The notes below the pieces were generated by a model. The model ran no database searches and was not told the DNA's origin. It was given only the letters and a program-made list of their open reading frames with translations. DNA of 64,000 nt from Onchidella celtica (lineage: Eukaryota; Mollusca; Gastropoda; Systellommatophora; Onchidiidae): NCBI GenBank assembly GCA_963931925.1, contig OZ007581.1:16982450-17046449 (forward strand). The letters run 5' to 3'. A program made the position numbers and the translations under genes. Of the stretch, positions 42,701-48,700 are shown one piece after another (position 1 is the stretch's first letter; the number at the start of each line of letters is the position of its first letter).

Positions 42701-45700
42701 GTTTGGTAATTTGCTCAGGCACAGTAAATAAATGAAGCGGAACGGAAATGCAAATGGTAGTCTGGCAGGCAGTAATATCTTTCACCAGATCTAGTTCTAT
42801 ATTTATAATCTGATAAGTTTTTGTGGATGCTAATTTGGATGACAACTCTGCCAAAAAATTTCCAATCCTCCTAAACTTTTGAAATGTCCACCAGAAAATC
42901 TTTTGGAATCCTCTAGAAATTTTTGTTTTGTGAGTGTTATCAGCCCTGTAATAGTAAATGGGGAAAATCAAATAAGAGGTGCTTTACAGTCAAGTTGTTT
43001 CATTTCCCACTCCGTCTCTTTACGTTTCCAGTTTCTGGGAGATCAGATGGTGAAAGACACAGGTCTGGCCTGTAGATTTGTGATCTCCAAAAAACCAGAG
43101 GGGTCACCTGTCACAGAGAGAGCCATCCCACTAGCCATATTCCAGGCTGAGCCAACCGTAAAAAGACACTACCTGAAGAAATGGTTGAAAGTTTCAGATG
43201 CTTCTGAATTGGACATCAGAGATGTGAGTCAGAATTTTTATATCCTTCATTTCGCTGGCCCTATCATGAAAAGATATAGTTAGGTTGTTTGGGGACCTGT
43301 TATCTTGTTACAAGGCCAAATAGAGAAACTACTGAGTTGACTCTGTATTGACTGTTCAACTCCAGGTAGAATGCGCATATCCGCCATCTTTAGTGTAAGG
43401 ACCCACAAAGCACCATAGCGATTGTGGCATTGATTTTGATTCTTTAGTTGATTTGCACTGTGAGCACGTGGGGCATCGCGAACCAACCTGCGGCGAGCTA
43501 AAAGTAGTTTGCTACAGTAAACAATGATATGTGTGTACATGTGCAACGGAAGACATTCGGTCAGTTCTTTCACTTCCTTTCCCTTGTTTTTACACGGATG
43601 GTAGGGAATCTGACCAGCTTGGATCCATCCTTTCCACCCCTGTCATAACAATCATCTACAATGCAACCAGCGGGCATTTTAACTGCTTAGACATATCTCG
43701 AAGTTACACTCATCAGCTGATCCACGGGCCATCTTTAGTGTATGGAGATCAAAACAAAAATGCTCTGTGACATCATGCGCGTTCTACCTGTAACCTACTA
43801 GATCTATATTGAATACGGTCGCTTAACAACGGTCATCATGGAATTGCACAGGTACAATGGACCTAATTTTCAGACAATTGGAAAAAAAAAGGACTGGTTT
43901 TCAAAACTGAGATTTCAAATTTCTAAGTTTGTGAAACAAAAGTTGAAATGACGAAAATAGCATTTGTTTAACCCCTTCACTGCTATGTTTTTTCCCCACT
44001 GAATGCCAGAAAAGAAAAAATGTTAAGTGCATGAACTTTGAGTAGGACAAACAGTGTACGTCACGGCTGTTAAGAGGCGGTATTCTAGTTGCCGAGCCCA
44101 GTCGAGCGGCCTCCTCGCTATTGGTGACCTGACCCGGTCGCGACCTCGTTAACTGGGTCAGCGACCTCGATTCTAGGGGGGGTTTCCCGGAGCCCGTTTA
44201 GCGCTTCTGACTCGCTGTTTTTTATCGGTAATCAAAGCAGTCTCACACCCAAATCAGCCCATATGTCATACTTTTGTAAACACATAATAACTTAGCGATA
44301 TATTGTAAATGTATACAGTGAACCATAGAAATGTATTCAACATCGTAGTAGAGATATAGAGGCACAAAATTATACAATATTTCCTCAAATGAGTACATAG
44401 TTCATAAATTTCAGATATGAAATTAGATAATAAAAATATGATTGGCCCCATCGAATGAGGTGAAATCATCACACAGCACGAGAAATAGGTTAACTTTCAA
44501 AACTCACATGACTGCATTCATGTATAGATATCCAGTGTCGAGTTATTCGAGTTTGACGATCATTTTCCGTTGGCCTCACTGTCAGTGTCATGTCACGCCT
44601 GCACTTAACCAGTCATATGTTATCACAAATTCACAAATAATCAAAAACAATGAATGGGTCTATAAAATTATAAATAATGTCACAGATTAAGATTTTGTCT
44701 TCCTTCGTTTCACTGGTGGAGCACATGCTTGGAGTTCTGGGGAGGTTTGTAGATGTTGTGACTGCATGACTAGTTGAAGTTGGTGTTGCTTGTTTTTGAT
44801 GGCTGCTGCCCGTCTTTCTAACTTGGCCACAGAAGCGTGAATGAGCTCGCCCCCTTGCTCACCATGCAGTGCCATACCAAACCCGTATTTCTGTATCCAG
44901 GGAAGGCAGTGCTTCTCTAGAATATGTTGCTTAGGTATGATTTTATTGGGGAAAGAACATCTGAATAATTCCATGTACCTAGTAATCCAAGTTTGAATGT
45001 GTGGAATGTTGTTAGGTGGCACAGGTTTTCCATGTGATATTAATGTGTGAACTTTGGCGTATGCTTCATTTATTTCATTAAATTTGTCCCGCAACACGAA
45101 AGCCATGGTCAGCATGCTCTGGTTGTGTGTGTTTTCCTGTGTTTTCTTGATAATGAACAAAGTAATGTCTTTATAAACTTTGGCAGTGATGTATTTGTGG
45201 CAGTGGTTTCCGATGAATGAACGGCTATGGTATGACTGAGGTGTAATGTTGTGTTTGTCAAGAATGTTGTCTAGTTGTGAGCAGATGGGCCCTGACCTAG
45301 GGCTGAGGGGCTCGAAATCAAGGTTGAGTAACTCTTCTTCTGCATCTGAGAGCTTCTCCTGAAAACGGCTTCTCTCTTCTTCATCATTAGTCAGAGTCAC
45401 ACAACCTTGCAGGAACCGAATTCTTTCTTCGAGTCCCTCAGCCTTTGGCCAGTTGCTTCCATAGGATTTTACTGACGCAGACACACCTTTGCATTCATCT
45501 TCTGCTTGTAAGCCCAACTGCACATCGATTTCATGTGCAGCCTCTTCAAGCAGGCGATGGTGTTTCAGCACAATACCTAACAAAATATGAAGATATGGCG
45601 GAGCAGCATGGCTTGGATCTACATCTAGCATTGGGAGGTGGAGACTATTGTGAAAACGGCGCACATGTTTCTTCAGCCCTAAGCCGACCTCTTTGAAACG

Positions 45701-48700
45701 TTTGTAGTCGTGTTTGATGGTGGCCAAAGAGCGGGCTGGAGAGTCATGTGTTTGTAATTTCATCATGTGGGACTTTGGCGCCAGGCACCACAGACATGGG
45801 TATGTGCCTTGTGCACCAGAGAGTCCATATATTTTAGCAAGAAAGTCATAATCCCCAAAAAGGAATAAAACTATTTTCTTGCCCTGCCATACTAGTGCTG
45901 AAAGCTCTGCAAGTTGAGGTTGTAAAACAGACATACATGTTTCAAGGTTTTCATAGCTGTCTTTGATTTTTGCCATTGCAACTAGAAATGTGTTGTGTTT
46001 TGAATTGGCTTTTTGTGTGTTAGCTATTTGAAGAGTAAATTTTAAACTATCTTTGCCGTGGTCCCCCCCAAACTTAACCCAAATTTCATCCTGTGGAATG
46101 GTGGAGTCGTGCCATGTGAGTGTCTCATTTTGTTTCTGTTTGTCTAAGATGTTGACTACAAAATCTGATAGATTTGAAACCCTCCCGAATGCTGCGCGGT
46201 GTGTCTGTCCATCGGCGTCAATAAAATCCTCCATCTCTGTGACAATGTCAGCTGCCAGATCTTCCATGGCTTTCCGTTGTTCTTGCTCATTTGGCAACAT
46301 GAGGCCAGCTTCTTTAAGATACCGTCTTTGTTGACGTAACTGGCTCCATGTTAGATCTGTAGCTTCCTTCATTGCCATCACAGACTGGCTGCTCATTTGT
46401 GGTTTTAATTTAATGCCTGCCTCCTCACAAATATTCTTTCGTGTCGCTGTTTTGACCTGTCTAAGTTCTGATGCATGTTGTGTGGTAATACTGTCTTGTG
46501 ATGCGCCCGCTATGCTAGTCCTAATGGTAGAAAGCAAATGTGTGCGTTTTCTTTTGGTGGTTTCTTTGGCTAGAGATGTTTCTTTATTTGTTTTTGTTAG
46601 TTTGGCTAATAGTATAGGTTGGCCTCCTGTCTTGCATTTGAAAATGTTTGTTTCTGAATTATTCAATCGTCTCCTAACAAAATGTGTGTGAAGTTTATGT
46701 TCTTCTTGTGTAAGTGGCCGTGTTGGGGACAATTCGAATGACTGGGAAAATAACTTGTCGTGTTTAAATGCCGGTGAGGTGTTGCTGTCTACCATAACCT
46801 TTGTAGGTTTGTGTGGCGTTGATGTAGCAATAGGGGGGCCGCTCAACTCTGCCTCATTAAGGCCACTGCTAGATGACGGTGTGTTTTCTGTTAGCGTTGT
46901 GTCCTCGCATGTTGTACTACAGGTCATTGATAGGTTGGATGTGTCATGTAATGTAGCTGATGTGGCTTCCGTTATGTCACGATGGATTGCGTCTTGTATT
47001 GTACATGCAATCGTTTGTGTTGGTGCTGTCTCCTCAAATGTTGAATTTTGTGTTATCGGCGAAGGGATTATATCCTCTAATGTCGAAGTTGAACATGCTG
47101 CTGCTGCTGTGGAAATTATTGTTTGGTCTCTGTCTTGATGTGGTGTGGAGTCATTTGAAACATGTCTACTCCCCAAACTAGTCTTTAAATACTGTGCACA
47201 TAATACACAATCTGCGGCCCTCGTGTTTGGCTGAAATTCAGTCCATAAATGTGAACTTCCTTGGGCCAACTTCCTGGCGTTAACAATACTACCTTTGAAG
47301 GCATGGCGTTTGATGTTTCCTATCACGGCCACACACGAATAACAAATAGTTGAGGAGTGAATATGATTCAAGTCGCCGGTGATGGATACACCAAAAGCAA
47401 GCAAAATGTCATTCTCAAAGTCCTTGCATTTCTTTGCTTTCCGCCTTTGCCGTTTTTGCTGTTTGGTAAGTGTCCTCCCACCACATGTTCGACACAGTTC
47501 GTGGAGGCGCTCAACGTGGATATGTTCTTCATGGTGCTCCATTTTGCAATATTTTTCACACAAGCTGCTAATAACAGGCGGCAAACAAACAAAAAATGGC
47601 ACAGAAGCACCTCGATTGAGTCGCACAACTTTTTCAAAAATCGTAAACAAATCACACAGAACCTATACATACACCAAACTTGCACGGGTTAGAGGTTAGC
47701 CTTTACACTTTCGAAATATTGATTTTATATGGAAATCAAAGGCGGCCCGTGCAAAATATTGACGATTAAAGAGAACTAGTGTTGAAAATCAAATTCCAAA
47801 ATCTAAAAAACACACACTGGAAATATCAGCCGATAAAATCAACAATCTTGAAAAGTAAGCAGCAAAAGTTATATCGTCCTGTTGGTACAATCCTGACGTT
47901 TAAAATGAGATCTCGCATGGTGCTGTAGCATTATTAGATCGGAAGATATCGCGCTGCAAAGGTATGCGAAAATTGGTGGAATCGTATTACACAGGCTTGA
48001 CCAGGGATGGCATGCCGTCACGGATGTGCACACGGCTGACAGGTGATTTATGACCGCATCGCGGGAGGTCGGCGGGGGATTCCGATCGGCAACTAGAATA
48101 CCGCTTTCCAAGCGATTTAAACAGCCGTGACGTCAGCAATGCACTTGCACTATTGATCTTATTACATGTAGTGTATGTCCACAGGGCACTCAATTTTGAT
48201 ACGCCCACAGTGCAAACTAGGGTTAATTATTTAGAGAGATTCATCCACCAATAGATTCTGTACTATTCATTTCAGATCCTTGACTGGGAGTATTATGTGG
48301 AACGTCTCGGGGGATGTATTCAAAAGATCATCACTATTCCTGCAGCTTTACAATCTGTAAGCTTTTACCAGAAAATGTTTTTTTTTTTTGTCCCTTCAAA
48401 ATTTTTTGTGTTGTTTTTTAAATGTTGCATTTTTAAAACAGTACCTAATTTGCCTCTCTCTTTCTCTCTCTCCTCCCTCTCCTCTCTCTCTCTCCTCTCT
48501 CCCTTTCTTTGTTTTTCTCCCACTGTCTCTCTCTCTCTCTCTCCCTTTTTTAAACTTTTAGCAGTGGATATTTTTAGTTGTATTCTAGTCATATATTATT
48601 TAATCTTTTGTGTGTGTTTGAAATTTACTTGCCAGTTATTCCTTGTAATTTTTTTTTTTTGGCAGTTTTGCTGAAAGGCATCAGTCCTGCCTTGCTGAAA

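Follow-up and report, generated by a model that had tools for sequence, protein, structure and literature searches.

Evidence for a Chapaev transposon in Onchidella celtica whose transposase combines a RAG1-type N-terminal module with a predicted RAG1-like core

RAG1 is the enzyme that assembles antibody genes. In a window of 64,000 nucleotides (nt) from Onchidella celtica (contig OZ007581.1, positions 16,982,450-17,046,449, forward strand), a frame of 987 codons had been described in an earlier note as a RAG1-like transposase, joining a RAG1-type N-terminal zinc module to a RAG1-type catalytic core. Which kind of element does this frame belong to, and what does the union of both modules in one protein mean for the origin of RAG1? 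We find that it is part of what is almost certainly an autonomous cut-and-paste DNA transposon of the Chapaev group (CMC, for CACTA-Mirage-Chapaev), an identity that the earlier note had missed together with the CAC..GTG ends and the 4-bp duplication. Its single long protein is predicted to be a DDE transposase, made up of an N-terminal Chapa module, a linker devoid of a RING domain and a core of the RAG1/Transib type.

An intact transposase gene between CAC..GTG ends

The frame at 44687-47650 is real and intact; its coordinates stood as first given, and its strand, which had been left unstated, is the minus strand, the plus strand having no open frame over this interval and being full of stops. 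It starts with TTG, and an ATG follows as codon 37. The related proteins P0002, P0020 and P0022 have their first residue opposite this ATG, and matches to diverged copies within the genome set in at residue 18 or 35; translation therefore probably leaves out the first 36 codons, for a likely protein of 951 residues. That the frame is not a product of chance follows from 19 homologues in the protein database (all with E 1.6e-114 or better), from a match to the Pfam family DUF1280 (PF06918; E 2.4e-16, above the gathering score) and from a dN/dS of 0.18 against an intact relative with 66% protein identity, an approximate value at a dS of about 1.26. Searching the protein database by alignment brought in four more proteins, among them a host gene model that carries a short stretch of transposase, and tblastn, in one scan of each, found no relatives in viral and genome contig collections. 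Two predicted host proteins, P0015 (Nucella lapillus, 1594 aa) and P0023 (Plakobranchus ocellatus, 482 aa), carry a piece of Chapaev transposase; one of the two has PF00566 and one is named 3-ketodihydrosphingosine reductase, and the transposase pieces are either exonised insertions or annotation chimeras.

The loci L001-L028 were examined for element ends, and BLAST resolved both ends in 24 of these 28; the others are L018 and L022, in which one end was unaligned, and the diverged relatives L024 and L025. All 24 copies are bordered by an identical 4-bp target-site duplication and none by a 5-bp one, and 23 of them, the window copy included, have the termini CACGGCTGTT..AACAGCCGTG (CAC..GTG), L017 carrying point changes. 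Where target sites could be counted (n=23: L001-L017, L019-L021, L023, L026 and L027; L028, with no flank beyond the duplication, was omitted), a pyrimidine (Y) occupies position -1 in every case and a purine (R) position +1 in 20. A weaker preference for G at -4 (12/23) and C at +4 (14/23) makes the target roughly palindromic. One copy, L027, has been shortened to 3,022 bp by an internal deletion but keeps both ends intact and is flanked by a 4-bp duplication of its own, CACT. Five relative loci (L029, L030, L031, L034 and L035) were also screened for a CAC..GTG pair with a 4-bp duplication: L029, which coincides with the locus of the 66% relative L024, shows CACGGCTGTT ends and the duplication TTTC; L034 and L035, both of them copies from one other family, show CACAGCGCCG ends and the duplications TGAT and TTCC.

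These features place the element in the Chapaev group. DUF1280 was matched by all 22 members of the family alignment and, according to a passage in PMC3985635 (2014), corresponds to Chapaev transposases; the hallmarks listed in a section of PMC4079192 (2014), namely duplications of 3-4 bp, CAC..GTG ends and the motifs C(2)C, LH and H(4)H, are all present here, with a duplication of 4 bp. A RAG1-type module occupies the position of the Chapa zinc domain before the core, as judged against the published descriptions of Chapa and of Chapaev elements (Repbase). The element differs from two published Chapaev subgroups, and from the homologue P0019, in having no RING. The related Chapaev3 group (Merrow, Garfield, Conan) was also considered and rejected, as its duplications are the 3-bp sequence TWA in the same section of PMC4079192, versus 4 bp of varied sequence here.

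Could the element instead be a true RAG-like (RAGL, ProtoRAG or TransibSU) or Transib transposon? Its predicted core fold, which is closest to RAG1, BbRAGL and HzTransib, and its RAG1-type N-terminus would both be expected of a RAGL element. However, RAGL and Transib elements make 5-bp duplications, which occur in none of the 24 copies; RAGL elements also carry a RAG2-like gene, and Transib lacks the N-terminal module. Among the 13 frames of at least 60 aa overlapping the element, the longest besides the transposase has 127 aa and runs antisense, so that no RAG2-like partner was seen, a gene of small exons being possible. PF12940, the RAG1 core family, was not listed for the window protein at E <= 10, whereas all seven vertebrate RAG1s match it at E 0; a genome-wide PF12940 search gave no matches, but was uninformative, as control genomes gave none either. 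With a RAG1 protein as query, the named proteins among the best 120 of 234 matches were vertebrate, and no RAGL or Transib protein was among the matches listed. Given the CAC..GTG ends, the 4-bp duplications and the equation of DUF1280 with Chapaev, we reject membership in RAGL or Transib as very improbable. Vertebrate RAG1 itself shares the N-terminal zinc module and the predicted core fold, and differs from the present protein by its RING, its RAG2 partner and its 5-bp duplication.

Two RAG1-type modules in one protein

The assignment to Chapaev leaves the RAG1 likeness of the protein largely as it had been described. D530, D600, C619, C622, H909, H914 and E931 are all found at the positions given earlier, and the order D, D, CxxC, Hx4H, E is that of RAG1. 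When 19 proteins, several of them truncated, are aligned, D530 and the CxxC cysteines C619 and C622 show no variation, and D600, H909, H914, E931 and E935 show almost none; the LH motif, L687-H688, is likewise invariant or close to it. D600 falls on RAG1 D708 by an ungapped count back from CxxC, where hhalign places a gap of three residues. As for the final acidic catalytic residue, spacing and an offset argument from the structural and hhalign alignments make E935 a likelier candidate than the E931 named earlier. The predicted structure has the RAG1 core fold, with 16-18% identity to RAG1 over the structure-aligned core, and when the core was tested for a better fit to an unrelated DDE superfamily, the RAG1 type still fitted; the core is thus, as far as the model goes, of the RAG1/Transib type.

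The N-terminal module is likewise borne out as RAG1-type by profile comparison. It aligns with RAG1 in hhalign at E 6.6e-13, and hmmsearch matched the RAG1 N-terminal chain 21wb at E 6.1e-8 with alignment A3 and 0.0015 with A2, the shared motif being HxxRLxxxCRxCGxR...IHxxxxCxxC. The Pfam family RAG1_imp_bd matched the window protein at E 0.0013, below its cut-off, and 4 of the 22 family alignment members at E <= 1. Between module and core lies a linker of low model confidence; no RING (ZDD) match was found in the window protein at E <= 10 in Pfam. In P0019, a RING is present at residues 191-234, a stretch that none of the 82 listed genome matches covers (49 of 944 candidates scored). The zf-AD profile (PF07776) was listed at E 0.011 for the window protein, 4.8e-5 for P0019 and E <= 1 in 6 of the 22 members, below the gathering score where printed; this family was not listed for any of the seven vertebrate RAG1s. 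When a single ZAD sequence was aligned with the Chapaev and RAG1 profiles, 43 and 20 of 200 Cys-fixed shuffles did equally well; kinship with ZAD may be considered a weak lead.

Could the protein have arisen recently, through the joining of an N-RAG-TP-like element to a RAG1-like core, and hence be an independent re-creation of RAG1? The module is detected by sequence profile and the core mainly by its fold, as such a fusion might suggest. We took the longest open stretches from 16 loci, with some places fetched twice, and ran the N-terminal module profile on them; among distinct places outside the near-identical young copies, it gave a full match in L020, L022, L024, L030, L031, L034 and L035 and a partial one in L023, in each case before the same core; L025, whose match to the window protein starts at residue 127, gave none. 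The RAG1 profile itself matched L020, L022, L024, L034 and L035, but not L023, L030 and L031. As module and core also occur together in homologues such as P0002, P0009, P0014, P0016 and P0019, and the architecture has been described for Chapaev generally, we strongly disfavour a recent fusion. More Chapaev families with long open frames are present in the same genome (L030, L031, L034, L035), L030/L031 and L034/L035 seeming, from their N-terminal stretches, to be near-identical pairs, and further Chapaev-family places lie at C9:281146, C10:5829606, C1:28882135 and C3:49828637.

The assignment to Chapaev draws on hallmarks and on DUF1280. Several observations weigh against a Chapaev transposon of RAG1 kinship. 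L030 and L031, two of the five relatives screened, showed no CAC..GTG pair with a 4-bp duplication within the fetched flanks; and in the search for an empty site, the left flank of the window copy matched two further genome places in part, both matches stopping short of the junction. On the RAG1 side, hhalign yielded three collinear local matches between the cores, individually insignificant (E 0.016-0.49), and a forced global alignment failed; with sequence-only matches this weak, homology of the core rests on the fold. The window protein alone matched the RAG1 N-terminal chain at E 0.1, so that this match becomes significant only with profiles.

Copies, mechanism and surroundings

The genome (1.14 Gb, 43 contigs) was searched with the window protein and gave at least 52 matches, 16 of which are nearly full-length, 97-100% identical and stop-free. 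Among 21 young copies with both ends, mean divergence is 0.67% over 210 pairs (range 0.07-2.6%); the family has amplified recently. Against the diverged subfamily L020, L022 and L023, dN/dS is 0.24-0.28, which, like the value for the 66% relative, points to selection on the transposase over longer times. The window copy probably belongs to a recently active family, which may be active at present. A long intact frame under constraint could also be a domesticated host gene with retained transposon ends, but this is hardly credible when numerous near-identical copies sit at different sites and are each flanked by a duplication of their own, and when dN/dS, on few changes, is 0.44-0.74 for the window copy compared with 15 further young ones.

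For transposition, we envisage that a transposase dimer would bind the CACGGCTGTT ends and cleave at CAC through a D-D-E site formed by D530, D600 and probably E935, with zinc held by C619/C622 and H909/H914. The ends would then be joined across a 4-bp stagger that is preceded by a pyrimidine and in most cases followed by a purine; a hairpin on the flanks, of the kind made by RAG1, is conceivable by analogy only. The N-terminal module is probably not catalytic, its likely role being dimerisation or protein contacts.

Table 1. Positions of the element and its parts in the window
Feature	Position	Strand	Remarks
Complete Chapaev element (very probable), 4,068 bp	44062..48129	-	Inverted ends and duplications; ends shared with the 24 copies resolved on both sides
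Transposase gene	44687..47542	-	951 aa from the probable ATG; open frame reaches 47650
N-terminal 'Chapa' / RAG1-type zinc module, model residues 1-125	47168..47542	-	Profile comparison
RAG1-like catalytic core (predicted), model residues 380-951	44690..46405	-	Structural alignment, approximately RAG1 460 to 1007
D530 codon, putative first catalytic Asp	46061..46063	-	Invariant in alignment
D600 codon, putative second catalytic Asp	45851..45853	-	Nearly invariant
CxxC, C619/C622	45785..45796	-	Invariant; aligned by hhalign with RAG1 C727/C730
Hx4H, H909/H914	44909..44926	-	Nearly invariant; aligned by hhalign with RAG1 H937/H942
E931 to E935	44846..44860	-	Both nearly invariant
Left terminal inverted repeat	44062..44071	+	CACGGCTGTT; 3' end of the element relative to the gene
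Right terminal inverted repeat	48120..48129	-	Complement of CACGGCTGTT
Subterminal inverted repeat, left part	44077..44095	+	Exact 19-nt match, offset by a short indel
Subterminal inverted-repeat partner, right end	48086..48104	-	19 nt exact
Target-site duplication, left copy	44058..44061		ACGT, directly outside the element
Target-site duplication, right copy	48130..48133		ACGT, directly outside the element

Beyond the right end of the element, an 81-bp exon at 48276-48356 (plus strand), bounded by AG and GT, matches the catalytic subunit of DNA polymerase epsilon (26 residues, E 3.1e-9 to a PDB chain). The transposon end lies 147 bp upstream of this exon, with the transposase gene antisense to it; apparently, the transposon is inserted in an intron of the polymerase gene. 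Elsewhere in the window, two look-alike sets of frames at 28037-30590 and 14760-16796 (both minus strand), one of them with DUF7869 (E 2.2e-10), resemble by eye another DDE-type transposase family, with motifs such as SDGCxxQN. The frames at 47-3382 (minus strand), 7143-8951 and 9095-12112 (both plus strand), of 1111, 602 and 1005 aa, encode endonuclease and reverse transcriptase and are non-LTR retrotransposons.

Implications for the origin of RAG1

N-RAG-TP of Aplysia was reportedly described by Panchin and Moroz in 2008. Like the present protein, it resembles the RAG1 N-terminus and belongs to a molluscan mobile element; unlike it, it is described as an N-terminal part only in passages of PMC8355894 (2021), where a fusion of N-RAG-TP with Transib is still argued to be the origin of RAG1. 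No co-mention of N-RAG-TP and Chapaev was found in the literature searched, and the architecture of the present element suggests that N-RAG-TP may be part of a Chapaev element. A joint reading seems possible to us, if rather doubtful as a whole: N-RAG-TP would be the 5' part of a Chapaev element, the order of N-terminal module, optional RING and RAG1-type core, as kept in Chapaev, would be ancestral for RAG1 and make a fusion of N-RAG-TP with Transib unnecessary, and the module would be distantly related to the ZAD dimerisation domain of insects. If true, kinship with ZAD would give the non-core end of RAG1 a known fold.

The earlier claim that the novelty lies in the core fails, because both of its ingredients are in print: the architecture of Chapa domain plus core was published for Chapaev in 2015 (as part of PMC4411706 has it), and RAG1 and DUF1280 had been united in one clade of RNase H-like enzymes in 2014 (a passage in PMC3985635). 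Chapaev and Transib, the latter the source of RAG1, have also been grouped as CMCT in a section of PMC12730594 (2025). The present element is thus a good new example of a known group whose kinship with RAG1 is already published; what may be new is the link between N-RAG-TP and Chapaev and, as a weak lead, that to ZAD. The predicted structure, in which a Chapaev protein unites a RAG1 N-terminal module with a core of RAG1 fold, supports the view of 2015 that the modules were joined before Transib, RAGL and Chapaev split, and a Chapaev element with both modules speaks against the fusion model as it appears in those passages of PMC8355894. With its many intact, near-identical copies and perfect duplications, the family is a candidate for the biochemistry of Chapaev transposases, and such a transposase could allow the role of a RAG1-type N-terminus to be studied apart from immunity.

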